In this document: one piece after another, positions 1,361-31,532 of the stretch
How the letters are laid out: each line of letters opens with the position of its first letter
Numbering within the stretch: the first letter of the stretch is position 1
Assembly: GCA_024400505.1 (NCBI GenBank)
Contig: JAKSMP010000025.1
Coordinates: forward strand, 1 to 32,896
Source: Bacteroidales bacterium
Lineage (GTDB): Bacteria; Bacteroidota; Bacteroidia; Bacteroidales; P3
DNA length: 32,896 bases
Reading direction: 5' to 3'
Notes under the pieces: generated by a model
The model's database searches: none
Told to the model about the DNA's origin: nothing
What the model saw: only the letters and a program-made list of their open reading frames with translations
Program-made: the position numbers and the translations under genes

Positions 1361-1448
1361 CGGAGAGACAGGGATTCGAACCCTGGGACCCCCAGAGGAG
1401 GTCAACGGTTTTCGAGACCGCCCCGATCGACCACTCCGGCATCTCTCC
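1361..1448 (-). tRNA. tRNA-Ser (anticodon CGA)
   Basis: The minus strand folds as an 88-base class II tRNA. The 7-bp acceptor stem pairs GGAGAGA with TCTCTCC and leaves a discriminator G. The anticodon loop is CTCGAAA, giving anticodon CGA for UCG codons. A long variable arm and the T-arm with GGTTCGAATCC follow. The long variable arm and anticodon both fit serine. CCA is not encoded. It has its own promoter at 1496-1525 and terminator at 1303-1352, so it appears to be a single-gene unit. Confidence 0.96.
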
Positions 1449-12478: not shown

Positions 12479-12508
12479 TTGCTGATTGAAAAAAATGTTG
12501 TATTTTTG
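12479..12508 (+). promoter_or_regulatory. Promoter of the cobalamin-riboswitch transcript
   Basis: TTG at 12479-12481 is followed after 19 bases by TATTTTTG at 12501-12508, so transcription would begin around 12515, at the first base of the riboswitch. Confidence 0.7.
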
Positions 12509-12515
12509 CAGCCGA

Positions 12516-12692
12516 TTTGGTCATCGCTTAGGCGATGTGAAAAGGGAATCAGGTGAGAATCCTGAACAGTCCCGCTGCTGTGAATCCTAATTGAAAGCCG
12601 CAGCCTCCAAGAATGAAAGCCACTGCACGGCGCCATAGTCGTGTGGGAAGGCGGAGGCAGCGAAGGATGAGTCAGAAGACCTGCCAAGTCGT
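12516..12692 (+). promoter_or_regulatory. Cobalamin (adenosylcobalamin-type) riboswitch
   Basis: The conserved core is easy to see. A CATCGC/GCGATG helix is followed by AAAGGGAATCAGGTGAGAATCCTGAACAGTCCCGCTGCTGTGA (12541 on), which is the family's GGGAA...GGTGaaAaTCC...CaG-CCCGC-CTGT box. Farther on come AGCCACTG (12618 on), GTGTGGGAAGG and finally GAGTCAGAAGACCTGCC, the closing B12-box strand. These are diagnostic of the cobalamin riboswitch, which usually represses cobalamin uptake or synthesis genes when the vitamin is plentiful. About 205 bases separate it from the next start codon, so the expression platform lies in 12693-12897. I could not identify whether it acts on transcription or translation. 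Confidence 0.93.
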
Positions 12693-12897
12693 TCATTTCA
12701 TAGTCCTCGAGGAAAGGAATATTGGAAGAGAAAGATTAATCATGGCTGGTCGAAAGCAGACTGCTGTGCTGAGGTGCAACAAAACAAAGGGTCTGCAAAG
12801 GATCTGGTCGCCCAATCTTCCGTGTATTTTCTTTTAATCGAGCACTTGATTTGAGCAAAATTGAGTTGATTAATATTTGTAATTTTGATAAAAAAGT
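12693..12897 (+). other. Leader between riboswitch aptamer and first gene
   Basis: This holds the likely expression platform. A CAGCAC / GCAGTCTGC-type short helix is possible near 12757-12775, and a CCTCGAGG palindrome is at 12705-12712. There is no obvious terminator, so translational control is possible. No open frame of note occurs. Confidence 0.4.
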
Positions 12898-19833: not shown

Positions 19834-21741
19834 ATGATAGTCTGTATAGCAGAAAAACCCTCCGTCGGACGCGACATTGCCCGCATCATCGGTGCCAATG
19901 TGGCGCACGACGGCTACATGGAGGGCAACGGTTACCAAGTCACCTGGACTTTCGGCCACCTCTGCACCCTCAAAGAGCCCCACGACTACACCCCCTGGTG
20001 GAAACAATGGGACTATGAAAACCTGCCCATGATTCCCCCCCGGTTCGGCATCAAGCTGATCGAGAACGAGGGCTACCAGAAACAATTTGCCACCATCCAA
20101 CGCCTCATGCTTGCCGCCGACGAGATCATCAACTGCGGCGATGCCGGCCAAGAGGGTGAACTCATCCAGCGTTGGGTGATACAGAAAGCACAAGCCAAAT
20201 GCCCGGTCAAGCGGCTGTGGATCTCATCCATGACCGATGAAGCCATCCGCGAAGGCTTTGCCAACCTCAAACAGCAAGACGAATACCAGTCGCTCTACGA
20301 GGCTGGCCTCTGCCGCGCCATCGGCGACTGGCTGCTGGGCATGAACGCCACCCGACTCTACACCCTCAAATACCGCCAGGCCAACCGCCAGGTGCTCTCC
20401 ATCGGCCGAGTGCAGACCCCCACCCTGGCCATGATTGTCAACCGCCAGCTCGAAATCCAGCATTTCAAGCCCGAGCAATACTGGGTCCTCTCCACCATCT
20501 ATCGCAACACCCTCTTCACCCTCAAGCAGAAAGAGAAAGACGACGAGGAAGAAGGCTCCGCCAACGCCAAAGGCCGCATCACCAACGAAGAGGAAGGCCG
20601 CCGCGCCTTGGAGAGCATCCGCAACCGCGATTTCGAGGTGACCGGCGTCACCCAGAAAGCCGGCAACGAGGCCCCCCCGCGCCTCTTCGACCTCACCAGC
20701 CTGCAGGTGGAGTGCAACAAAAAATTCTCCTTCTCAGCCGACGACACCCTCAAATACATCCAAAGCCTCTACGAGAAGAAATTCACCACCTATCCCCGTG
20801 TGGACACCACCTTCCTCTCCGACGACATCTACCCCAAGTGCCCCACCATCCTCCAGGGGCTGCTCCCCTATGCTCCCCTCATCCAGCCACTCATGGGCAC
20901 CAAGCTCAAGAAGAGCAAGAAAGTGTTCGACTCCTCCAAGGTCACCGACCACCATGCCATCATCCCCACCGGCATGAACCCCGCCAACGGCGACATGACC
21001 CTCAACGAAAAGAAAGTCTTCGACCTCATCGCCCGCCGCTTCATCGCCGTCTTTTATCCCGACTGCAAATACTCCACCACCACCGTCACCGGCAAAGTGG
21101 AGACCGAGGAAACCACCGCCACCGGCAAAACCAAGAAAGGCAAGCTGGAGTTCAAAGCCACTGGCAAGCAAATCCTGGATCAAGGCTGGCGCAGCGTCTT
21201 TGCCTGGGGCCACGCCACCAAAGAGGTGGCCACCGACGACGAAGGCAACCGCAAAGACGATGAAGAGAAAACCCTGCCCGCTTTCCAGAAAGGCGAACGC
21301 GGCCCCCACACCCCCACCCTGGCCGAGAAATGGACCCAGCCGCCCAAGCCCTATACCGAGGCTACACTCCTGCGCGCCATGGAAACTGCCGGCAAGAGCG
21401 TGTCCGACGAGGAGCTGCGCGATGCCCTCAAAGCCAACGGCATCGGCCGCCCCTCCACCCGTGCCGCCATCATCGAAACGCTCTACAAGCGCAACTATAT
21501 CCGCAAAGAGCGCAAAAGCCTCATCGCCACCGACACCGGCATCAGCCTCATCGCCACCATCCACAACGAGCTCCTCAAGAGTGCCGAACTCACCGGCCAA
21601 TGGGAGAAAAAACTGCGCGAGATTGAGGCCCATCAATACAATGCCCAGCAATTCATCTACGAGCTCAAGCAGATGGTCGTTCAGCTGGTGCAGCAAGTAA
21701 AGATGGACCCCGCCCGCCCCAATATCACCCCTAACGTCTAG
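19834..21741 (+). CDS. topB: DNA topoisomerase III (type IA)
   Basis: The protein has 635 residues from the ATG at 19834, which gives MIVCIAEKPSVGRDIA, the standard start of this family. An earlier in-frame ATG at 19807 would overlap sppA and is less likely. The Toprim domain (1-150) has the acidic cluster CGDAGQEGEL at 101-110. The classic second Asp of D-x-D-x-E is a Gly here, a variant I recall from other Bacteroidota copies. LSIGRVQTPTLAMI (188-201) and the active-site region FTTYPRVDTTFL, with Tyr320 as nucleophile, are intact. It relaxes negatively supercoiled DNA and resolves intermediates. No zinc fingers are seen at the C-terminus. It is co-directional with sppA and truA. Confidence 0.93.
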   Translation: MIVCIAEKPSVGRDIARIIGANVAHDGYMEGNGYQVTWTFGHLCTLKEPHDYTPWWKQWDYENLPMIPPRFGIKLIENEGYQKQFATIQRLMLAADEIINCGDAGQEGELIQRWVIQKAQAKCPVKRLWISSMTDEAIREGFANLKQQDEYQSLYEAGLCRAIGDWLLGMNATRLYTLKYRQANRQVLSIGRVQTPTLAMIVNRQLEIQHFKPEQYWVLSTIYRNTLFTLKQKEKDDEEEGSANAKGRITNEEEGRRALESIRNRDFEVTGVTQKAGNEAPPRLFDLTSLQVECNKKFSFSADDTLKYIQSLYEKKFTTYPRVDTTFLSDDIYPKCPTILQGLLPYAPLIQPLMGTKLKKSKKVFDSSKVTDHHAIIPTGMNPANGDMTLNEKKVFDLIARRFIAVFYPDCKYSTTTVTGKVETEETTATGKTKKGKLEFKATGKQILDQGWRSVFAWGHATKEVATDDEGNRKDDEEKTLPAFQKGERGPHTPTLAEKWTQPPKPYTEATLLRAMETAGKSVSDEELRDALKANGIGRPSTRAAIIETLYKRNYIRKERKSLIATDTGISLIATIHNELLKSAELTGQWEKKLREIEAHQYNAQQFIYELKQMVVQLVQQVKMDPARPNITPNV

Positions 21742-21751
21742 CACATATCCT

Positions 21752-22522
21752 ATGAGATACTTTATACATCTTGCCTACAACGGCGCCAACTACAACGGCT
21801 ACCAAACCCAGCCCGGGCTGCCCACCGTGCAGGAAACCATCGAGAAAGCCCTCTCCACCCTCCTGCGCCAGCCCGTGGCCATAGTGGGCTGCGGCCGCAC
21901 CGACACCGGCGTCCACGCCAGCGACTACTACGCCCATTTCACCCTGCCCGAAACCGACACCTTCGACGGCAAGATCGACTGCCAGCAGCTGGTCTTCAAG
22001 CTCAACAGCTTCCTCCCTGCCGACCTCGCCATCTTCGACATCTTTCCCGTCCGCCCCAATGCCCATGCCCGCTTCGACGCCACCGCCCGCACCTATCAGT
22101 ATCATGTCAGCGACCGTCGCCTCCCCTTCAAGCAAGGGCTCTACAGCCGCATCTACTACCGCCCCGACCTCGACCTCATGAACCAAGGGGCACAAATACT
22201 CTTGGAGTACGAAGACTTCACCTCCTTTGCCAAACTCCACACCGATGTCAAAACCAACATCTGCCACCTCTCCCTCGCCCATTGGCAGCAAGAGGGCGAC
22301 GAATACATCTTCACCATCCGCAGCAACCGCTTCCTCCGCAACATGGTTCGCTCCGTCACGGGCACCCTCCTCGACGTTGGTCGCGGCAAACTCACCCTCG
22401 ACGGACTCCGCCAGATAGTGGAACGCAAGAACCGCTGCGCCGCCGGCGTGTCCATGCCCCCCCAGGGCCTATTCCTCACCCAAGTAGAATACAACTTTGA
22501 TCAATTAAAAATTAAGAATTAA
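21752..22522 (+). CDS. truA: tRNA pseudouridine(38-40) synthase TruA
   Basis: This 256-residue protein contains the catalytic motif GCGRTDTGVHAS with nucleophile Asp51. It also has RFDATARTYQYHV at about 110-122, FTSFAKLHT, and RNMVRSVTGTLLDVGRGK at about 197-214. All are standard TruA landmarks. It isomerises uridines 38-40 in the anticodon arm of many tRNAs. It starts 10 bases after the topB stop, in the same direction. Confidence 0.96.
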   Translation: MRYFIHLAYNGANYNGYQTQPGLPTVQETIEKALSTLLRQPVAIVGCGRTDTGVHASDYYAHFTLPETDTFDGKIDCQQLVFKLNSFLPADLAIFDIFPVRPNAHARFDATARTYQYHVSDRRLPFKQGLYSRIYYRPDLDLMNQGAQILLEYEDFTSFAKLHTDVKTNICHLSLAHWQQEGDEYIFTIRSNRFLRNMVRSVTGTLLDVGRGKLTLDGLRQIVERKNRCAAGVSMPPQGLFLTQVEYNFDQLKIKN

Positions 22523-22594
22523 TAATCTAGAACCTCTAGATAACCTATCACCTCTAACAATTCTAGCCCCCCTAGAAAATAAACTCACCCCAAA
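22523..22594 (+). other. Short spacer with clustered CTAG motifs
   Basis: Four CTAG tetramers occur within 72 bases between truA and prmA. No terminator and no TAnnTTTG box is visible, so prmA is probably read from upstream. Its meaning is unknown. Confidence 0.4.
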
Positions 22595-23443
22595 ATGAAA
22601 TACATCGAAGTAACCATCACCCTTTCCCAAACCGATCCCGCCAGCGACATCCTCATCGACCTCCTGGGCAACGAAGGCCCCTACGACAGCTTTGTCGAGA
22701 CCCCCGACGGACTCAAAGCCTATGTGCCTGCCGACAATTTCGACGAGCAATGGCTCCAGCAGCAACTGCTCGAAGTGGCCGACTTCTGCCAAGCAACCTA
22801 CACCTTCGAAGCCATGCCCGACAAAAACTGGAACGAAGAGTGGGAGAAACAGCACAAACCCGTGCTGGTGGAGGCCGACAACGGCAAACGCCTTTGGGTG
22901 CGCGCCCCCTTCCACGAACATCGCACCGATGTCGATTGGGAACTCGAAATCGAACCCAAGATGTCCTTTGGCACCGCCCACCATCAAACCACCTACATGA
23001 TGCTCTCCTACCTTAGCGAGCTGCCCGTCCAAGGGCTCAAAGTGCTCGACATGGGATGCGGCACCGCCGTGCTGGCACTCCTGGCCAAAGTGCGCGGAGC
23101 CAGCTATGTCGAGGGTATCGACATCGACGAGTGGGCCTACAACAACGCCATGGAAAACGCCGAGCGCAACAACGCCCAGCTCACCATCCGCATAGGCGAT
23201 GCCAGCCTCTTGGGCGACACCCAGTTCGACCTCATCATCGCCAACATCAACCGCAACATCCTCCTCAACGACATGGCAGCCTACGTCGGCGTGCTCAATC
23301 CCGGCGGCACCCTGCTGCTGAGCGGATTCTACGAGAGCGATGTGCCCGCCCTCCAAGCCCACGCCCTCAACCTAGGCCTCCAGCTCCAAGAGACCAAGGT
23401 GCGCCAAACCTGGGCCGCCCTCCGCTTTGTCAAGACCGCATAA
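22595..23443 (+). CDS. prmA: Ribosomal protein L11 methyltransferase PrmA
   Basis: At 282 residues it has the normal PrmA length. An N-terminal L11-recognition domain (1-100, with MPDKNWNEEWEKQHKP at 74-89) is followed by the SAM-binding domain. That domain has FGTAHHQTTYMML (about 128-140), the glycine motif VLDMGCGTAVLALLA and the catalytic IIANINRNILL. PrmA trimethylates several Lys and the N-terminus of ribosomal protein L11. The gene ends the sppA-topB-truA-prmA run and is closed by a hairpin terminator at 23465. Confidence 0.95.
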   Translation: MKYIEVTITLSQTDPASDILIDLLGNEGPYDSFVETPDGLKAYVPADNFDEQWLQQQLLEVADFCQATYTFEAMPDKNWNEEWEKQHKPVLVEADNGKRLWVRAPFHEHRTDVDWELEIEPKMSFGTAHHQTTYMMLSYLSELPVQGLKVLDMGCGTAVLALLAKVRGASYVEGIDIDEWAYNNAMENAERNNAQLTIRIGDASLLGDTQFDLIIANINRNILLNDMAAYVGVLNPGGTLLLSGFYESDVPALQAHALNLGLQLQETKVRQTWAALRFVKTA

Positions 23444-23464
23444 AGTCACATTTCCATAACACAC

Positions 23465-23496
23465 AAAACGCCCCTAGCATCCTAGGGGCGTTTTCT
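23465..23496. terminator. Bidirectional intrinsic terminator between prmA and the defence operon
   Basis: AAAACGCCCCTAG pairs with CTAGGGGCGTTTT over 13 bp with a 4-base loop. It has T-rich tails on both strands, so it can end prmA transcription on the plus strand and the defence operon on the minus strand. Confidence 0.88.
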
Positions 23497-23625
23497 TTTA
23501 TCACCATGCTTCCTGCCGCACATTCCTGAGCACATGATTCTGGGCAACCACAGCATAGATACATTGCTGTGGACATTACGGTAAAAACTGGACATCCATT
23601 CTTCTTCAATAAATAGCCATATATT

Positions 23626-23805
23626 CTACAACGTCGCGAGACAAGAGAGAGTATGCATGATGCCATAATGCTGTCCGCAAATCACCAAAGCACTATACCT
23701 ACTAAGATACCTTTCGGCTTGAGCATCAGTAAGGTTATAGTGTTGGGTAAAATCTGCCTCCAAAGCCAACCATCTAGCAAATTGTTTTTCAAACACATCG
23801 CACAT
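23626..23805 (-). CDS. Possible 59-residue protein at the end of the defence operon
   Basis: A frame from ATG at 23805 to TAG at 23626 gives 59 residues that begin MCDVFEKQFARWLALEADFT and include YNLTDAQAERYLSRYSALV and CGQHYGIMHTLS. The composition is protein-like (charged helices, no low complexity), and no longer frame with similar quality overlaps it. It starts 40 bases after the specificity gene stop, in the same direction, so it may be a fourth gene of the operon or a remnant of a larger gene. I do not recognise a family. Confidence 0.45.
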   Translation of the reverse strand: MCDVFEKQFARWLALEADFTQHYNLTDAQAERYLSRYSALVICGQHYGIMHTLSCLATL

Positions 23806-23844
23806 AACTTATGAACATCGACAGAGACTGAACGCTCAGCTAGT

Positions 23845-25197
23845 TCAGAGATCTCCCAAAATCATTCTTTCGACTTCCTTATTTGCTTCATTCAGGATTT
23901 TTTCACCTTCGTTAACCAGAGATTTTGCAAGTAGCCTAGTTTCTGATATTTTATCAACTATTTCAATTTGTTTTGCAATTGGGATGTCTGGTATTTTCAA
24001 TCCTCTAATATTTGAGGCATAAATATGTGGTTGTGCTGCACCAGTTTGTAGCTGATAAATGTATTCTTGCTGTAATCTCAACACCTCATACAGATATTTT
24101 GTCAAGAAACGTGACTTATCTTTTGAGAATACCACATTACAATCTGTTGCAAAAATTGGATTATCGTGATACCAAACATATCCAGAATATGCACCAGAAG
24201 CACTCACAGTAATTACGTCTCCACCAAAATTTCCAACATTGTGTCTTCCTGCAGGAGTTTTGCCTCCAGCAATAATAGGAATGTTCCCAGGTATCGCTTT
24301 GTCACTTGTCATTGCTGTGCCTTTCTTTATATAGGCTACTTCATTCAACGCAACATTATCAAAGACATTGCTATAAGGATGGCACTTTGCCACTCGTGTA
24401 TATTCTGGATCAAATCTGTCACCTAAATATCTTTTATTGAACTTAAAAAGCCTATATTCCAATTCATTTCCTATTTTGGGGGATATCATATATAGCTCAG
24501 CAAACAGATACTCATCAATTCCTTTCAATAGATTTTGAGATTCTTCATATTTTTGTTTTTTCTTAACAATTGCCTCATCTATTGTAGAAAAATCTATTCC
24601 TTCAATAATTGGAATGTTCTTTATAGATGGATAATCCAAAGCAGGTCTCGTTCCCCCTGTAGAATGACGAGATGCTATTCTTTCAATAATATTGAGGTTG
24701 AGATATCTCGAAAGATACTTACTAATCTCGACATTCCCTGTTTTTATTACAACCATATGTTGATTAGTATTTCCAACAAAACCATCGGGAGCCACTGAAG
24801 CAATTGCCATTCTGCCAACACCTGTTATCTTTACTAGCAAATCACCTCCATTGACCTGGCTCCTTGAAAGCATTCCATCGTGAGTTTCCTTATTTATATA
24901 CAGGCAATCTGTCAATGATAAGGAACCATCAGCATTGAGATTTTGAACCCTCAAAAAAGGAATTCCAGTTTTTGCATCGGCATAATATTTATCACCATCT
25001 GCCTTCTTTGGGGTCGCTCCACCCGATACAGAAAGGGCAAAATCCCCTAGTTTCCTGGATGATTTTCCCCTTACTTTTTTTTCCAGGTTTGTTATTTCTG
25101 GTAGATAAAAGTTGGGCTCAAGTCTTCCTTCAATCTCTGATCGATTGACAACAAAAATCTTTTCCTCACTACTATCGACTGGAATATGGTTACTCAT
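23845..25197 (-). CDS. hsdS: Type I / BcgI-like restriction-modification specificity subunit (S)
   Basis: This 450-residue protein has two target-recognition domains. TRD1 (about 48-200) contains the GGATPKKADGDKYY and IPFLRVQNLN segments, NTNQHMVVIK, and a TGGTRPALDYPSIKNIPI ending. TRD2 (about 283-405) has IKKGTAMTSD, NIPIIAGGKTPAG, VSASGAYSGYV, and a GAAQPHIYASNIRGLKIP ending. Each is followed by a conserved helix (about 205-235 and 406-450). Two 'R-L/F-x-P-x-[FY]' segments, GRLEPNFYLPEI and DRFDPEYTRVA, precede the TRDs, as in BcgI-type S proteins. It determines the bipartite DNA site. Its ATG overlaps the preceding gene's stop by 4 bases (25194-25197), a mark of translational coupling. 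Confidence 0.92.
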   Translation of the reverse strand: MSNHIPVDSSEEKIFVVNRSEIEGRLEPNFYLPEITNLEKKVRGKSSRKLGDFALSVSGGATPKKADGDKYYADAKTGIPFLRVQNLNADGSLSLTDCLYINKETHDGMLSRSQVNGGDLLVKITGVGRMAIASVAPDGFVGNTNQHMVVIKTGNVEISKYLSRYLNLNIIERIASRHSTGGTRPALDYPSIKNIPIIEGIDFSTIDEAIVKKKQKYEESQNLLKGIDEYLFAELYMISPKIGNELEYRLFKFNKRYLGDRFDPEYTRVAKCHPYSNVFDNVALNEVAYIKKGTAMTSDKAIPGNIPIIAGGKTPAGRHNVGNFGGDVITVSASGAYSGYVWYHDNPIFATDCNVVFSKDKSRFLTKYLYEVLRLQQEYIYQLQTGAAQPHIYASNIRGLKIPDIPIAKQIEIVDKISETRLLAKSLVNEGEKILNEANKEVERMILGDL

Positions 25198-26714
25198 TCT
25201 TTTCTTTTTATAAGTCCGTAATTCTTTTCGAGTATCTCTAGAATGTTATCTTCAATCACTTTTGAAAGTGATGTTGACCTACAATTGTCGTCGTATTCGT
25301 GATATGTGTCATTTTGATAGTCAGATTTTGGATTTTCACTACCACTTTTTTTAACCAATATTACTTGTTTGTCTTCCAGAGCTCTTGCCCACCCCATCTC
25401 ATATGAAACATTCGCATTATTCTCAGAAATATCAGCAAAGACTATTTTTGCCTTTTTTATTTTATTAATGATGTCCTGAATTTGATCCTGAGTTCCACCC
25501 TTTGCGCACATTATTGGAAAAAGCTCAATGTTGACATTGTATTTCTTTGCGATATTTTTAATCGTATTATCATATATAGAATTGTAATCAGCGACAATAT
25601 CAGGATTTCCTTTAAAAAATGGCATAGCCACAAATACTTTTATCTCTTGAGAGGATATTTTGTCATACAAACTAATTAAACTTTCTGCGCTTACATCATC
25701 GGACACTTCGAAAATATGGTTGTTTAATATCCAATTTTTGAAGCCACAGAATCTTTCAGTCCCTTGTAAATGATACCACAAAAAGGAAATTAATAATCCG
25801 ATGCTTTTATGAGTCAATAATACAGGAGTTTCATTGTATAATGTATTAAGAGCTTGCATGGATTCAATTATCTTATCAACAGTTGAATCTGATATCTCTT
25901 TTTGTATTGCTATTCTCTTAAATACCTCATTATAAAATGTTCTATAGTTATCATCAATTACACGCTTCAAATTTGAGAAAATGCTAGGATTAACCGATGA
26001 TATCATCTTACGTGTATAAATGGGGTATTCTCCTTCAAAAATATCAAATAATTCTTCGTTTGGGAAATTATCAGAATCATCAATCATTACACGTAAATTC
26101 TCCTCTGAAGTAAGAGGAATGGTTTTTGTGTTGATATTATGGAAGAATACTTTTGTAGCTTTGTCAAAATTTTTTTCGTCATGATTATCTTTTACTTTCA
26201 TCTCGTTCATGTCATAATATTCTGTGCCTAACAATAAACAAAATGGGATAACCATTCTTTTAACCTTCTCGTTAGATGATTCCTCTGCAGAATTAAGTCT
26301 GTGATTGCCATCAATTCTATGCAATTGTTTACCCTGACTTTCATCTAGCGTTAACTCAGCAATTGTCACTTCTTTAGAAGATCCTTTTGAAAAAGTGACC
26401 TTCTTCAAATCAATCTTTGTACTATCATTTTTTAAGTTAGATTTATAATTTTTCCCATTCGCCAATTTTATTAACGGTTCATCTTCTCCGGGTTTCCCTT
26501 TTAGCGCATATTTTATTTTGTAACTTAATATTACTTCTGGGAAAAATAGGTACGTCTGTGTTTCAAGGAAATCGCTAATATCGCTTCTGTCAAGCAACCC
26601 CCGTTGGTAAGAATAATCAGCCTTAGAGATATTAGCTAACTCTTTGATGTTAGCAAATCCCCTTATGCACAATTGTCCATTTAATGAATTATCTAAAATA
26701 CCTGTCAGTTTCAT
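25194..26714 (-). CDS. DGQHR/DndB-like protein fused to a nucleoside-deoxyribosyltransferase (TIR-like) domain
   Basis: This 506-residue protein carries an N-terminal DGQHR-type (DndB/ParB-like) domain (about 1-260). The motif is LHRIDGNHRLNSAE (131-144), a DGNHR variant of the usual DGQHR, followed by the family-type FFHNINTKTIPLT (190-202). A helical linker is followed by a C-terminal domain (about 358-460) of the nucleoside 2-deoxyribosyltransferase/TIR-like superfamily. That part reads VFVAMPFF, YNSIYDNTI, ADISENNANVSYEMGWA with Glu439 in the expected catalytic position, and QVILVKK. It lies between the fused nuclease-methyltransferase and the specificity gene, with 4-base overlaps on both sides (26711-26714 and 25194-25197). 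An NAD- or nucleotide-cleaving effector triggered by DNA sensing is inferred, not shown. The gene is AT-rich. Confidence 0.85.
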   Translation of the reverse strand: MKLTGILDNSLNGQLCIRGFANIKELANISKADYSYQRGLLDRSDISDFLETQTYLFFPEVILSYKIKYALKGKPGEDEPLIKLANGKNYKSNLKNDSTKIDLKKVTFSKGSSKEVTIAELTLDESQGKQLHRIDGNHRLNSAEESSNEKVKRMVIPFCLLLGTEYYDMNEMKVKDNHDEKNFDKATKVFFHNINTKTIPLTSEENLRVMIDDSDNFPNEELFDIFEGEYPIYTRKMISSVNPSIFSNLKRVIDDNYRTFYNEVFKRIAIQKEISDSTVDKIIESMQALNTLYNETPVLLTHKSIGLLISFLWYHLQGTERFCGFKNWILNNHIFEVSDDVSAESLISLYDKISSQEIKVFVAMPFFKGNPDIVADYNSIYDNTIKNIAKKYNVNIELFPIMCAKGGTQDQIQDIINKIKKAKIVFADISENNANVSYEMGWARALEDKQVILVKKSGSENPKSDYQNDTYHEYDDNCRSTSLSKVIEDNILEILEKNYGLIKRKE

Positions 26715-28900
26715 AATTTTTCGTCTTTAATAAAATCCTTTAATCTTTTTCCAATTTCAATTAATTCATTTACTCCAGTTTCTTTGCCCGTAGCATCATA
26801 TCCAATGTCCTCGGCAATAGCCATAAAAACTGGATAATCGATTAGTTGGGCCGCCTTCTGACTGGCATAATCAGAAGATAAGATGTCTCTACCCTCTCCC
26901 TCCCATTCAGCATATTCCTCTTTAATTTGTTCTGACAGTAACTTGTATTCTTCCGTTTTTCTAGCATCACTTATTGTGATTCCTTGTGCTTCTTTAATTG
27001 ATTTTGCTTTATCATCCAATTTCTTTTTATTGGCAGCTTTCATTATTTTGGAAAGATTAAAGAAGTCCATTTGCTTAAGAAGAGATTCTTTAATTCTTTG
27101 CTTTGTAGCGACTATGTCATCAGTCTCTTTTTTGCTCCATTTTTTCAAGAACAGCACTGAGGTTTTTACCCCAGCGCCATTAGCTGTAAATGCTGTTTGG
27201 GGCAAACTGACAACAGCCACTATTCGGAACCATTCTTCAATTTGATCTCTTACGAATTGCAAACTTGTGTTGGTCAGAATTCCATCTGGCAAAATTATCG
27301 CAAGAAAACCGCCTTCCTTCAAAAACTTATAATCTTGTTCAATAAAAAGTATCTCGGTGTTCATGCTATCCCGATAGGAAATTTTTCCACTTGGTGGCTT
27401 CATCCAATCTTGGTCTTTCTGTCCTAAATGATATTCTTTCAAGTATGCTTTTTCCGTTTGTCTAACTGAGCTTCCAAAAGGTGGATTGGTAATAATAAAA
27501 TCAAATGTTCCATATTTGAAACCAGCATTGTGCGTACGTTCAAATATTTCCTCATCAGAGATAAGTCCATCAGAAGTAATGACATTGGTATGGCCATCAT
27601 CGTGGATAATCATATTCATTTTGGCTGTACGAGAAATCTGCTCGCTGATTTCAATACCATAGAGATTGTTGGATGCAAATTCGTGCCAAAAATCTTTCCA
27701 CCTCATTCTTTCGTCTAGGTCGGTCTCGTAGTTCTCAAATGTGCGTGATGCCTCTTTGCGCACTTTGTCTAAAGCATACAGCAAAAAACCGCCACTGCCA
27801 CATGATGTATCCAAAACTTTTGAGTTTTTTTTGATCGGCAGTACATCAACGATAAACTCTACTACTGGACGAGGCGTAAAATACTGACCAAAACTACCAC
27901 GAAAAAATGAGTTCATAAAAGTCTCAAATGCACGCCCTTTACTATCTAAATCAGTTTTTCCTAGGTTAATGCCTTGTAGGTAACTGACAACTGTTCTGAT
28001 TTTCTCAGGAGTGAGACGAATGTTATCGCGAAATACTTCAGCATCTTGTTGCCTACCTTCTTCGTAGAGGTTCTTAACCCTTTTGTATAAATCGTCGTTT
28101 TCAAGTAGTCTTCTTTTATTATCATCCTTTTCAACTTCTTTAGAAATGGTGATAACTTGGAAATCGTAGGGTTTACCTTTTTTTCGTGGTTTCTTCTCGT
28201 CCCATATCTTACAAAAAATAAGCTTATCTAACTCGTCAAATGCTTCGGAAGGATTCAGCTGTCCACCGGCCCAAAGTGCCTCATGTGCTTGTTTAAAGCA
28301 TCGAGTAAGTTCATCACGACCAATGACGGCCAAATCAAAAAATTTCTGTTTGCCACTAGTTCGGTTATATTCATCCGCCTTATATACATATTTATAGGAT
28401 GCAACTTCAGCAACACCAAATTGAGGAATATCGGACAAGCGCTCCCTTGAAGTACTGTTTTTGTCAACCCTCAAATAGTCAGACTTGATGCCAGATGTCA
28501 CCCATACGAACTTTATATCCCCAGGTAATGCATATGCATAGCTGTAAGCCTGCTCAATAGCCTGTTGATACTCCGCCTCACTTACCTCTTGACGCTTACA
28601 CTCAACAAGGATGTACGGTTTTGTACAATTATCGTCAGCATAGACAACAATGTCGGCCACTTTCACCTCTCGACCCATGGTAACAGGAACATACATTTTG
28701 ATCCTACTCGCTGGATAATGGTAGTCCACAACTAGGCGAACGAATGTCTCGGTTTGAACCTTTACCTCTGGATGGTCAAAAATACGTGGATTATCTGAAA
28801 TTGAATACTTGATTCTTGACTTGTTTTCATCAAGTAAAAACAAACCTTTATCAAGACCAATTTTTATATAGTCTTTGACTTTTTCTAATGTATTACTCAT
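26711..28900 (-). CDS. Fused nuclease - N6-adenine DNA methyltransferase (BcgI-A/type I-like)
   Basis: This 729-residue protein has an N-terminal PD-(D/E)XK nuclease domain of HsdR_N type (about 1-205). Its motif is VADIVVY (Asp83) followed by ILVECKRQE (Glu100, Lys102). The methyltransferase follows: helical HsdM_N (about 210-320), then FGQYFTPRPVVEF (337-349), the SAM motif LDTSCGSGGFLLYA (363-376), and the adenine-N6 motif TNPPFGSSV (471-479). A charged helical tail (about 600-729) may bind the S subunit. One chain can thus cut and methylate, like BcgI-A/type IIG enzymes, and no HsdR translocase is encoded nearby. It is the first gene of the operon, with ATG at 28900 preceded by a 300-base leader. 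Confidence 0.88.
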   Translation of the reverse strand: MSNTLEKVKDYIKIGLDKGLFLLDENKSRIKYSISDNPRIFDHPEVKVQTETFVRLVVDYHYPASRIKMYVPVTMGREVKVADIVVYADDNCTKPYILVECKRQEVSEAEYQQAIEQAYSYAYALPGDIKFVWVTSGIKSDYLRVDKNSTSRERLSDIPQFGVAEVASYKYVYKADEYNRTSGKQKFFDLAVIGRDELTRCFKQAHEALWAGGQLNPSEAFDELDKLIFCKIWDEKKPRKKGKPYDFQVITISKEVEKDDNKRRLLENDDLYKRVKNLYEEGRQQDAEVFRDNIRLTPEKIRTVVSYLQGINLGKTDLDSKGRAFETFMNSFFRGSFGQYFTPRPVVEFIVDVLPIKKNSKVLDTSCGSGGFLLYALDKVRKEASRTFENYETDLDERMRWKDFWHEFASNNLYGIEISEQISRTAKMNMIIHDDGHTNVITSDGLISDEEIFERTHNAGFKYGTFDFIITNPPFGSSVRQTEKAYLKEYHLGQKDQDWMKPPSGKISYRDSMNTEILFIEQDYKFLKEGGFLAIILPDGILTNTSLQFVRDQIEEWFRIVAVVSLPQTAFTANGAGVKTSVLFLKKWSKKETDDIVATKQRIKESLLKQMDFFNLSKIMKAANKKKLDDKAKSIKEAQGITISDARKTEEYKLLSEQIKEEYAEWEGEGRDILSSDYASQKAAQLIDYPVFMAIAEDIGYDATGKETGVNELIEIGKRLKDFIKDEKL

Positions 28901-28948
28901 ACATAATCTGCGCTATGTTGTGCGATGGCTACTTATCTTCGAATGGGG

Positions 28949-29093
28949 GCGGGTCAGGGAATCAAAAACCGCAGGACACCAAAAAAGCGTAGGTTTCGCT
29001 TATCGGCATCCTGGGTATTTGGCCTGACCCGCTCTCTCTGATAAGTTCAGCCTACGCTACAGCGCAGGCGTTCGGAACTTATTCTGAGAGAGC
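28949..29093 (-). ncRNA. Structured leader RNA of the defence operon (possible attenuator)
   Basis: Two compound hairpins lie between the promoter (29226-29257) and the ATG at 28900. Hairpin 1 (29031-29093) pairs GCTCTCTC with GAGAGAGC and GAACTTAT with ATAAGTTC, around an inner GCC-GCGCT/AGCG-GGC helix. Hairpin 2 (28949-29032) pairs GCGGGTCAGG with CCTGACCCGC exactly. Inside it is an 8-bp AGGATGCC/GGTGTCCT helix, then an AAGCG/CGCTT mini-hairpin followed by six T. AGCGTAGG in hairpin 1 is an exact complement of CCTACGCT in hairpin 2, so the two folds can exclude each other. It may be a switch, an attenuator, or an independent RNA. The strand is inferred from the promoter. Confidence 0.55.
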
Positions 29094-29225
29094 TAATCTT
29101 CAAACGGCCAAATTTTAGGATTGCCTCGAATAAATAGCAAACGCTATGTTAATAATATGTTATATAATTATTTTCTTTTCTTTGTTGTTGCTTTAAGTGC
29201 TAGTTATACAATCTGTTTGAGGTTG

Positions 29226-29257
29226 CAAAGATACATTTTTTTTCTGAATAATACAAA
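29226..29257 (-). promoter_or_regulatory. Promoter of the defence operon
   Basis: On the minus strand TTTG (29254-29257) is followed after 20 bases by TATCTTTG (29226-29233), the best consensus match in this part. Transcription would start near 29219, giving a leader of about 320 bases. Confidence 0.75.
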
Positions 29258-29640
29258 ATTTTGATTCGAGATAGGTATTAGGGGATGGGTAGCAGGTGGT
29301 AGGAAATTGGTGGGGCGGAAGGATGCGAAGGGATGTTTTGCAGCGTTGCTTAGGGCTGGGGCTGGACGTAAGTAACGACCGGGGCTGGGCTTAACTTAGG
29401 ACTGCGATGGGTCTTAAGTTAAGGCTGCGGGCAGTCTTAACTTAGGGCTAAGGTGGGGCTTAACTTAGGCCGGATGAAAGCTATGCTTTAGGGCAGCTAA
29501 GGCATAGGTTTGGCTGCGACGAAGCAATGCTTTGGGGTCCTGGATGCAATGTTGGGGACGGCGGCTTGGGGGAAAACGAGGGGCAAGAAGGGGCGAATTG
29601 TGCGGGGACGAGAACCGTATTTTGGGTCTGGATTGTGGCA
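29258..29640. other. Gene-free, G-rich stretch between divergent promoters
   Basis: No credible gene. The stretch is G-rich on the plus strand and includes the repeats at 29388-29469. The open frames are low in complexity and lack a start context. Confidence 0.55.
29388..29469. repeat. Imperfect repeats of a TTAACTTAGG motif
   Basis: GGCTTAACTTAGG (29388-29400), GTCTTAAGTTAAGG (29411-29424), AGTCTTAACTTAGGG (29433-29447) and GGCTTAACTTAGG (29457-29469) are spaced about 22-24 bases apart. Cores such as CTTAAGTTAAG are nearly palindromic. A weaker copy may lie near 29376. They sit 180-280 bases upstream of the SulP promoter. Confidence 0.65.
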
Positions 29641-29645
29641 TATTA

Positions 29646-29675
29646 TTGGTTTGTTATTTTTTTTTCGTATCTTTG
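29646..29675 (+). promoter_or_regulatory. Promoter of the SulP gene
   Basis: TTG at 29646-29648 is followed after 19 bases by TATCTTTG at 29668-29675 and a C. The ATG of the transporter follows 59 bases downstream. Confidence 0.7.
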
Positions 29676-29734
29676 CACCTTGCTTTTTGTTATGAATTAT
29701 TAATATAATTTATTTAGATACAATATAGTAAAAT

Positions 29735-31480
29735 ATGAAATTTATCGAAACCAACAACATCAAAGGCGACCTTTTCGGCGGTATCACTGCCGGTATCGTT
29801 GCTTTGCCCTTGGCTCTTGCCTTCGGTATCCAGGCTTTTGGTGGCGTGAACGACCCTTCGGCAGCCTCTATGGGTGCGCTGGCCGGCCTTGTGGGCGCCA
29901 CTATGCTAGGCTTTTTTGCTGCTCTCTTTGGCGGCACCCACTCCCAGATTAGCGGCCCCACTGGCCCTATGACTGTGGTGACTGCTACCCTTGTGGCTGG
30001 CGTGTGGGCCAGCAGCAATGGCAACATTTCTTCGGTCCTCATCAGCATGGCTTTGGCTGGCTTGTTCTGCGGCCTTTTCCAGATTTTGTTTGGCGTGGTG
30101 AAGATTGGCAAGTATGTCCGCTATATCCCCTACCCTGTTTTGTCGGGCTTTATGAGCGGTATCGGCATCATCATCATCTTGCAGCAGCTTTATCCCTTGG
30201 TGGGCTTGAAGGGCACCGGCACCATGATTGACTTGGTGGTGGGCATTCCCGCAGCTGTGTCGGCCGGCATTTCGGTGCCCGCCCTGTTGCTGGGCCTTGG
30301 CACTATTGTCATCATTGAGATATTCCCCAAGATCACTACCAAGGTGCCCGCTACGCTTGTGGCCCTTATCGTGATGACTGTTGTTTCGCTTTTCTGCCAC
30401 TTGGACGACAAGCTGATTATTGGCGACATCCCCAGCGGATTGCCTCTGCCTTTCTTCCTGAAAGGGGGCATGGACATGGCCAGCATCAATTGGCTTGATG
30501 TGCTGAAGGCTTCGCTCATCCCCGGCCTCACTTTGGCAGGCTTGGGCTCTATCGACACTTTGCTCACCTCGGTGGTGGCCGACAATATCACCAAAACCAA
30601 GCACAACTCCAACCAGGAGCTGATTGGCCAGGGTATTGGCAATGCTGTGGCTGGTCTTTTCTGCGGACTGCCCGGCGCTGGTGCTACCATGCGTACGGTG
30701 GTGAATGTGAAGAGCGGCGGCCGCACCCAGATTTCGGGTATGGTGCACGCTTTGCTGCTGATTGCCATCCTCTTGGGATTGGGCAGCGTGGTGAAGTATG
30801 TTCCCCTCTCGGTGTTGGCCGGTATCCTGATCACCGTGGGTTGGGGCATTATCGATTTCAAGGGTTTCAAAGACCTTTTCAAGATTCCCAGAGCCGACGC
30901 TGTGGTGCTGGTGGTGGTGCTGTTCATCACTGTGTTTGTTGACCTGCTCACCGCTGTGGGCATTGGCATGGTGATTGCTTGCGTGCTGTTTATGAAGCGT
31001 GCTTCGGACTTGGTGGAAGGCGGCTACAGCTCGGAGAGTTTTGAGCAAGACCAGAACCGCCACAAGGGTTTGCCCGCTCCCGCTCAGGCCAATTTCGACA
31101 AGACTGTGGCATGGGAAGATGAGGGCGGCCTCACCGACGAGATGCGCCAGCACATCTATGTGCAGCGCTTGAATGGTCCTATATTCTTTGGCTCTATCAC
31201 CAAATTCAAGGAGGTGATGGAAGATGTGCCAGAAGATGCCAAGGTGGTTATCCTCCGCATGAAGCTGGTGAGTTTCATGGACCAGTCGGGCTTGTATGCT
31301 ATGGAAACTGCCATCAAGGATTTGCAGGATCGCGGCATCATGGTGCTGATGACCATCATCCAGCCTCAGCCCCTCTATATGCTCACCACCCTCAACCTGA
31401 TACCCAGCGTGGTGCCCGAGGAGCATACTTTCAAGACCTTCGAAGAGTGCACCGACTATTTGAAGACTATAAAATTCTAA
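29735..31480 (+). CDS. SulP-family inorganic anion transporter with STAS domain
   Basis: This 581-residue inner-membrane protein has a long run of hydrophobic segments from about residue 13 to 430. They include the SulP signature region GGTHSQISGPTGPMTVV (about 66-82) and the LAGLGSIDTLLTSVVADNIT segment (about 266-285). A cytosolic STAS domain follows (about 468-581) with the switch motif SFMDQSGL, Asp516 and Ser518. SulP proteins carry sulfate, bicarbonate, chloride or dicarboxylates; the substrate cannot be told here. Its promoter is at 29646-29675. A yebC-type gene follows 52 bases later in the same direction. Confidence 0.93.
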   Translation: MKFIETNNIKGDLFGGITAGIVALPLALAFGIQAFGGVNDPSAASMGALAGLVGATMLGFFAALFGGTHSQISGPTGPMTVVTATLVAGVWASSNGNISSVLISMALAGLFCGLFQILFGVVKIGKYVRYIPYPVLSGFMSGIGIIIILQQLYPLVGLKGTGTMIDLVVGIPAAVSAGISVPALLLGLGTIVIIEIFPKITTKVPATLVALIVMTVVSLFCHLDDKLIIGDIPSGLPLPFFLKGGMDMASINWLDVLKASLIPGLTLAGLGSIDTLLTSVVADNITKTKHNSNQELIGQGIGNAVAGLFCGLPGAGATMRTVVNVKSGGRTQISGMVHALLLIAILLGLGSVVKYVPLSVLAGILITVGWGIIDFKGFKDLFKIPRADAVVLVVVLFITVFVDLLTAVGIGMVIACVLFMKRASDLVEGGYSSESFEQDQNRHKGLPAPAQANFDKTVAWEDEGGLTDEMRQHIYVQRLNGPIFFGSITKFKEVMEDVPEDAKVVILRMKLVSFMDQSGLYAMETAIKDLQDRGIMVLMTIIQPQPLYMLTTLNLIPSVVPEEHTFKTFEECTDYLKTIKF

Positions 31481-31532
31481 TAAAGAGATAATCAAAGAAT
31501 TACGAATTATTAATTTTTAAACACACATATAT

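Follow-up and report, generated by a model that had tools for sequence, protein, structure and literature searches.

BsaXI, a Type IIB restriction-modification (R-M) system, has been described as a pair of proteins, RM and S (PMC9159934). PrrC is an effector encoded in a Type IC R-M locus (PMC12707154). DndB, of the ParB family, has been proposed both as a regulator and as a nucleotide-degrading back-up (PMC10853773), DpdB is a ParB-like ATPase that helps to insert dPreQ0 (PMC12839542), and the landmarks of the DGQHR domain are QR, DGQHR and FxxxN (PMC4619093). We studied a 32,896-bp stretch of a Bacteroidales bacterium (contig JAKSMP010000025.1), hereafter the window, in which a nuclease-methyltransferase gene (RM) and the gene of its S subunit enclose a gene for a 506-residue protein that we call X. 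Comparison of these genes with their homologs suggests that the operon is most likely an R-M system with a linked back-up effector, i.e., a variant of a known design, and that X most likely plays a PrrC-like role as that effector. An earlier note on this DNA, made from the sequence alone, knew of no named system with this exact set. We likewise found no paper on the gene set, nor on a leader RNA such as the one described below (PMC8040213 and PMC2864571 included), which is weak evidence given our partial coverage of the literature.

A Type IIB-like R-M pair with a third gene

The three genes lie on the minus strand: RM at 26711..28900 (open reading frame, ORF, 28900-26711; 729 residues), X in the middle at 25194..26714 (ORF 26714-25194) and S at 23845..25197 (ORF 25197-23845; 450 residues). 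Both junctions of the ORF list are 4 nt overlaps, RM/X at 26711-26714 and X/S at 25194-25197, which confirms the three overlapping genes of the earlier note. Pfam matches of RM were HSDR_N_2 (1.5e-17) and N6_Mtase (5e-38), with an N-terminal PD-(D/E)xK nuclease (D83, E100 and K102) followed by the methyltransferase motifs DTSCGSGGFL and NPPF, and its best match in the PDB was the Type IIB enzyme RM.BsaXI (8w0p, E 2.8e-46). The residues singled out in the earlier note are well conserved: among 65 aligned RM proteins D83 is kept in 62 (three gapped), E100 and K102 in 62 each (each with two gapped and one other residue) and NPPF in all 65, and E439 of X is kept in 63/63 (see below). S, the DNA specificity subunit, matched Methylase_S (2e-21) in two stretches.

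In this operon, as in Type IIB systems, the nuclease and the N6-adenine methyltransferase share one polypeptide with conserved residues, S is separate and has two target-recognition stretches, and a separate HsdR is lacking: no HsdR-like ORF, judged by size and look from an ORF list whose other members were not profile-scanned, was seen in 21500-31500. As far as sequence tells, RM and S are an intact Type IIB-like R-M pair, and the gene identities and BcgI-like character first read from the window hold. The likeness to BcgI and BsaXI lies in the nuclease-methyltransferase fusion with a separate S; the difference is the third gene, X, where BsaXI is described as RM and S. RM and S also matched the MAD2 and MAD5 models of MADS. 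Membership was rejected, as both scores fall short of the cut-offs (MAD2, 290.1 bits, cut-off 720; MAD5, 59.9 bits, cut-off 400); the window operon has three genes, and MADS comprises more.

Protein X joins a DGQHR-like domain to a TIR/deoxyribosyltransferase-like domain

With approximate borders, X is divided into a DGQHR-like part (residues ~1-215), a middle part that we guess to be helical, and a TIR-deoxyribosyltransferase-like part (~355-506). The window protein alone does not support this domain reading (its best Pfam match scored 14.1 bits where 28.8 are required, and no NCBIfam match appeared up to E 1), and homologs were therefore collected. A single-protein scan of genome contigs with X found nothing. 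A five-row X profile found 71 loci in genome contigs (167 stretches matching a pattern) and one in viral contigs (131 stretches matching a pattern). From 78 X loci we aligned 63 proteins; the 15 loci left out were duplicates or near-duplicates, contig-cut copies, a relic in Leisingera, the broken copies L095, L109 and L111, and L040.

Domain matches across the family were counted at E<=0.1. The DGQHR model TIGR03187 matched 55/63 members (best 2.6e-16), Nuc_deoxyrib_tr (PF05014) 28/63 (best 5.4e-8), CAP12-PCTIR_TIR (PF10137) 9/63 and the PADLOC TIR effector model 59/63 (best 1e-12); DpdB matched 20, DndB 16 and GmrSD_N five. Wherever coordinates were shown, the DGQHR matches were N-terminal and the deoxyribosyltransferase matches C-terminal. 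The best of the eight members listed with scores reached 51.8 bits for TIGR03187, against a cut-off of 58.85, and window X had no match to it, so that the N-terminal domain reads as a relative of the DGQHR family and not as a member. Among 61 relatives, searches with PF10137, PF05014 and TIGR03187 yielded fewer members than a profile-profile test requires.

The residue pattern agrees with a diverged DGQHR domain. The QR pair and FxxxN of that domain (TIGR03187/PF14072) are present in 63/63 X proteins together with DG(N)HR; the pentapeptide itself is DGNHR in 63/63 and DGQHR in 0/63. Invariant positions are Q37, R38, D135-R139 (DGNHR), F191, N195, W328, N435, V436 and E439. The scan patterns required a DGNHR or an FHNIN stretch, and these motifs were thus partly selected; 17 members with the FHNIN pattern and without the DGNHR pattern still read DGNHR, and none of Q37, R38, E60, N435, V436 and E439, each kept in 63/63, was selected on. 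E439 corresponds to the conserved Glu of the G/NVxxE.G motif of the TIR/deoxyribosyltransferase superfamily, a residue that we take to be catalytic. In a search of the PDB with the X profile, NVxxE aligned with the AFEVG Glu of the nucleoside deoxyribosyltransferase 2a0k in a weak match (E 0.0098); two further matches were weaker, and BLAST of X against the PDB gave nothing below E 0.3. By these family matches X is a diverged DGQHR/DndB-like domain joined to a TIR/deoxyribosyltransferase-like domain, and the fusion proposed in the earlier note is borne out (55/63 for TIGR03187 and 28/63 for Nuc_deoxyrib_tr) with the correction that its motif reads DGNHR.

X shares QR, DGxHR, FxxxN and family-level matches with the DGQHR, DndB, DpdB and GmrS proteins (ParB-Srx-like), from which it differs in the central Asn in place of Gln (63/63), in the fused C-terminal domain and in its place among S-type R-M genes (no dedicated dnd/dpd scan of the loci was made). 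With CAP12/Pycsar TIR proteins and nucleoside deoxyribosyltransferases it shares the NVxxE.G-type motif with its invariant Glu, and weak family matches. The partner domain in CAP12/Pycsar is a cyclic-nucleotide receptor, which in X is replaced by the DGQHR-like domain.

These likenesses could also be read as those of an enzyme that exchanges or removes DNA bases, which would modify host DNA, as DpdB aids DpdA, or excise hypermodified phage bases that block restriction. Deoxyribosyltransferases act on 2'-deoxyribosides. DpdB and GmrSD_N are among the models matched (20 and five of the 63 members, respectively), and DpdB is described as a ParB-like ATPase helping dPreQ0 insertion (PMC12839542). 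The C-terminal library model matched by most members (59/63) is nevertheless the TIR effector. Known enzymes of the TIR/deoxyribosyltransferase fold use small molecules, and we regard a base-exchanging X as improbable.

X genes are linked to R-M genes of two classes

RM, S and X were located by profile, and 81 loci from many phyla carry X. Four of them with a short, cut or degraded X (L040, L107, L109 and L111) were dropped from the tally, and RM and S matches adjoin X in all four. Among the 77 loci kept, R-M genes lie on the same strand as X in 75, and the other two (L086 and L098) are cut at a contig end. The linkage claimed for X is thus upheld by a search of gene order around its homologues. 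The order was RM-S-X in 43 loci, RM-X-S (as in the window) in 24, M-S-X in four and S-X in two; the remaining loci were one with RM and S fused (L102), a relic in Leisingera and the two contig-end copies of X. In all these arrangements the genes lie on one strand. Four contigs were counted twice (L039/L042, L038/L080, L053/L173 and L058/L172). X overlaps RM or S in 54/74 loci, the relic excluded, and in 50 of these by 30 nt or less; longest-ORF starts were used, which makes this count an upper bound. X lies more than 100 nt from RM and S in 8/74: five Type I-like loci, where hsdR is in between, and L055, L056 and L059.

These five loci are from Bacillota, and in each of them X closes a Type I-like operon. 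One of them, L105, is a full Type I system, hsdM-hsdS-hsdR-X, by Pfam matches (HsdM_N/N6_Mtase, Methylase_S and HSDR_N/EcoR124_C); L082 (cut before hsdM), L088, L092 and L104 look Type I-like from their profile matches, the sizes of their genes and their similarity. An effector-type gene inside an R-M operon is what a PrrC-type guard would look like, and the five Type I-like operons resemble PrrC-EcoprrI, a Type IC locus with a latent anticodon nuclease, in carrying a candidate toxic-type effector gene. X differs from PrrC in its TIR/deoxyribosyltransferase-like and DGQHR-like domains; an anticodon nuclease domain, i.e., the PrrC chemistry, was not among the Pfam matches shown for X.

On a Leisingera plasmid (L007:5957-8200) RM is fused in frame to X just after NPPF, and the RM tail and the X head are missing; this deletion relic implies that the operon existed in Alphaproteobacteria. 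Besides the relic, the plasmid collection gave for X just a short match to its C-terminal part, on one other plasmid; RM was found in two plasmid records, and the phage collection gave no match to X at E<=1e-5. The oddest of the 75 loci is the viral contig L112, where the S match lies inside an ORF with sigma-70 domains; at L112 2135-10584, X stands beside this sigma-70/Methylase_S ORF, an RdRP-like (PF05183) protein and a Mrr_cat nuclease gene. At L045:9521-11673, a partial S gene in inverted orientation comes after S, an arrangement also seen in phase-variable specificity loci.

X is an optional gene of its operons

The link looks different from the side of RM. Close RM relatives (E<=1e-100) occur in 11/344 genomes of the order; X is beside them in three (the window, G1053 and G1030) and was not seen in the available stretch in seven, where some contigs end soon after the operon (e.g., in G1104), and G919 is cut in S. 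At E<=1e-60, RM was found in 8/395 genomes of the phylum, with X in the window, G270 and G125, without X in G197 and in the distant relatives G356, G090 and G449, and cut in G228. The phylum of L106 was covered by 398 genomes, in which the sole non-seed RM match at E<=1e-80 (G463) carries X. The earlier note would have given up its reading if the middle gene were absent from most related operons: counted from RM, it is (X in 3/11), and counted from X, it is not (R-M genes in 75/77). The link is one-way, i.e., X goes with R-M genes and R-M genes often go without X, and for this reason X is an optional, portable add-on of S-subunit R-M systems and not a core subunit. RM and S probably work without X, as it was not seen in the available stretch beside most close RM relatives.

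Other genes occupy the slot after S. In G1104 (L171:9736-11132), from the window's own family, S is followed by a TIR_2 protein (1.3e-12) and then by an ORF cut by the contig end, and in G197 (L151:9075-10702) by a 206-residue ORF without Pfam match and a KwaB-like gene (1.3e-20), which are possibly a Kiwa pair. The protein after S in G935 has sub-threshold GHKL-ATPase matches, and G919 has a Bro-N protein between RM and S; others of the seven close RM relatives in which X was not seen, such as G1146 and G930, had nothing comparable there. The distances of X correlate weakly with those of RM (Spearman 0.26, 59 loci) and of S (0.15), which speaks against tight co-evolution and is as expected of a swapped gene. 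The earlier note did not recognize the swap of gene order, the forms with Type I genes, the interchangeable place after S or the structured leader RNA (see below).

Two further readings of X bear on this pattern. X might be an unrelated defence gene that shares an island with R-M genes by chance, since defence genes cluster in genomes and the X-RM distance correlation is weak. With R-M genes on the same strand in 75/77 loci, overlaps with RM or S in 54/74 and many phyla represented, this reading is scarcely credible and largely refuted. Alternatively, X would be a decoy, scaffold or stability factor of the RM-S complex with spent enzymatic domains, as its occurrence with S-type R-M genes and the free gene order (RM-X-S or RM-S-X) would allow. 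Such a role seems very improbable for a protein whose active-site-type residues are invariant in 63/63 members and which, not being seen in most close RM operons, is probably unneeded for the complex.

A proposed role as guard of the R-M system

We lean, if slightly, towards X being a guard, i.e., a back-up effector of the Type IIB-like R-M operon that would act by Glu439-dependent N-glycosidic cleavage when restriction fails. This reading is favoured by the linkage of X to R-M systems of two classes, by the TIR_2 and KwaB-like genes found in its slot, by its invariant key residues and by the precedent of PrrC. In outline, RM and S would together place adenine methylation on host sites and cleave DNA that lacks it, and X would have been recruited as a guard gene by R-M systems with an S subunit, whether Type IIB-like or Type I. 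The DGQHR/ParB-Srx-like domain of X probably senses a nucleotide or DNA state, perhaps while bound to the R-M complex or to the DNA of that complex. If restriction failed, were inhibited or met DNA beyond clearing, the N-terminal domain would activate the C-terminal one, whose Glu439 may cleave an N-glycosidic bond of NAD+ or of the nucleotide pool and thereby stop the cell or the phage, presumably to protective effect. The restriction with a built-in back-up effector suggested in the earlier note remains the best-supported reading, the grounds for it being homology, genomic context and a catalytic-type Glu that never varies.

Several observations weigh against a guard. Window X falls below every curated cut-off for both of its domains. 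At L040:106-4693 an X-like protein without the TIR/deoxyribosyltransferase domain stands beside S and an RM split in two ORFs, and three further loci (L095, L109 and L111) have a broken or cut X. Most close RM relatives have no X in the stretch examined (7/11), and the X-RM distance correlation is weak. Lastly, a published interpretation of DndB makes it an ATP-dependent regulator (PMC10853773).

In another reading, X is a DndB-like regulator of R-M: the DGQHR domain would sense ATP/NTP or bind operon DNA, the C-terminal domain would sense NAD or a nucleotide, and X would tune restriction or expression. It is consistent with the DGQHR/DndB similarity of the family, with the close packing of X with R-M genes and with the description of DndB as an ATP-dependent negative regulator (PMC10853773, PMC12707154). 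An invariant catalytic-type Glu with its Asn and Val (63/63), however, exceeds the needs of a sensor, the same slot holds TIR_2 and KwaB-like genes, and the operon already has a candidate regulator in its leader RNA; we consider a regulatory X unlikely, if worth weighing.

If X is a guard, one sensor-effector would be plugged into two R-M classes across many phyla, and its sensing principle must then be general to S-subunit R-M complexes. PrrC would in that case no longer be an exception and would instead exemplify a widespread design.

A structured leader RNA upstream of RM

A structured leader RNA was found at 28972..29162 on the minus strand; some 70 nt separate its end from the start codon of RM downstream. 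It forms a long covarying hairpin, P1-P5, and includes the 5' element AGCGTTTGCT. Upstream of it, at 29226..29233 (minus strand), lies a Bacteroidetes-type -7 promoter element, TATCTTTG, for which we take the consensus to be TAnnTTTG; this consensus occurs within 110 nt upstream of 33/49 leader copies, whereas block shuffles predict 1.4. Folding of the stretch 28901-29170 gave z = -9.6. Rfam gave nothing on the window leader at the gathering cut-off, the best sub-gathering matches on the leader stretch (E 0.4 and 3.1) both being far below it. On 18 loci with leader copies it gave three tRNAs and a sub-gathering CrcZ match (E 0.12) on the opposite strand, and no leader family.

Relatives of the leader were found before a C5 methyltransferase gene in the same genome and before the RM of the X operon L046. 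A model built from these two and the window sequence (37 pairs, 12 with changes on both sides) matched 104/168 related genomes at E<=1e-3, with at most 15 candidates scored per genome under strict filters. We examined 51 copies, i.e., the 50 listed matches of at least 95 bits (L250-L298 and the window) and L046; three pairs among them are more than 90% alike. In their alignment 94.5% of the cells pair, against 74.2% when shuffled, double changes occur in 31/37 pairs, and 412 cells are changed on both sides, against 121 when shuffled and at most 68 when slid. The alignment was fitted to the model, yet free folding gives nearly the same helices. Among 41 sources, mostly X and RM loci, the full leader is present only in the window, L046 and the own-genome copy, with a trace in L175; this rarity indicates that the leader belongs to the host group and not to X. 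In viral contigs, 58 stretches match the pattern of the 5' element.

A same-strand ORF of at least 60 residues starts between -60 and +300 nt in 48/51 copies, some of these ORFs being spurious. The next gene belongs to a DNA-methyltransferase or restriction family in 35/51 copies and is of about nine kinds: C5 (two), D12 (three), EcoRI-type (three), N4/N6 (three), Type III Mod-like (six), Type I/IIG-like including the window (five), ResIII (three), Mrr_cat_2/ResIII (three) and MmeI-methyltransferase-like (seven). We made these assignments by matching sequence clusters to Pfam counts (E<=1e-5), without a per-member table; the seven-member MmeI-like cluster rests on the Pfam count and methyltransferase motif I. 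The downstream proteins of L267 and L293 match N6 methyltransferases in the PDB, and those of L284, L253 and L282 had no PDB match, L284 being assigned by its similarity to window RM and an NPPF-type motif. In the remaining 16/51 copies the next gene had no R-M assignment. Small helix-turn-helix-type genes of 67-97 residues follow the leader in L265, L291 and L292 and, with weaker leaders, in L323 and L328; two of these genes match Pfam HTH_26 and the rest were recognized by eye.

As a control we inspected the 41 loci with leader matches below 95 bits (L299-L339), reading first-ORF starts by eye without Pfam; six had no usable ORF. One clear R-M gene (L302) and two possible ones (L316, and L313 at 1.9 kb) were seen, and from this rarity we infer that only the high-scoring leader clade is linked to R-M genes.

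Under a loose rule, a terminator-like hairpin with a T-run is present in 48/51 copies and overlaps the P1 3' strand in 36/51; under a stricter rule it is present in 37/51, against 20/1020 block shuffles. The hairpin of the window itself is short and without P1 overlap. The leader (window region 28901-29240, minus strand) is possibly a new attenuator class, and it may be more novel than the X operon. A wider proposal, which we make tentatively and with more doubt than confidence, is that X founds an undescribed class of R-M guards (a DGNHR sensor with a TIR/deoxyribosyltransferase effector) across phyla, in Type IIB-like and Type I systems, and that in Bacteroidales such operons, as well as numerous R-M genes unrelated to them, owe their expression to a novel class of cis-regulatory RNA. 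This RNA would be a transcription attenuator: its closing helix, P1, would form in competition with a terminator placed immediately ahead of the gene for the methyltransferase or restriction enzyme, with riboswitch-like or protein-bound control of the R-M dose. Newly acquired R-M systems have to balance methylation and cutting, for which C-proteins are a known route; the leader, if an attenuator, would be a new and different answer, among bacteria whose R-M genes are frequently on the move.

Insertion site and other features of the window

The G+C contrast and a same-genus comparison show the operon to be an A+T-rich insert that separates prmA from sulP; gene names at this site are our reading of the ORFs. 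The interval that holds the insert spans 23444..29734. The G+C content is 33-40% in the operon, 50-59% on the left side and 47-55% on the right. The distance from prmA to sulP is 95 and 101 nt in two same-genus genomes (L124 and L128), against 6.3 kb in the window. The comparison covered 29 other same-genus sulP loci with flanks of 1.5 kb or less: L134 has truA at that site and a weaker prmA match on the opposite strand, and in the other loci prmA was not seen within the stretch. The Type IIB-like (BcgI/BsaXI-like) operon would then have been gained horizontally. Elsewhere in the window, Rfam at the gathering cut-off identified a cobalamin riboswitch at 12501-12702 (plus strand) and a tRNA gene at 1361-1448 (minus strand).

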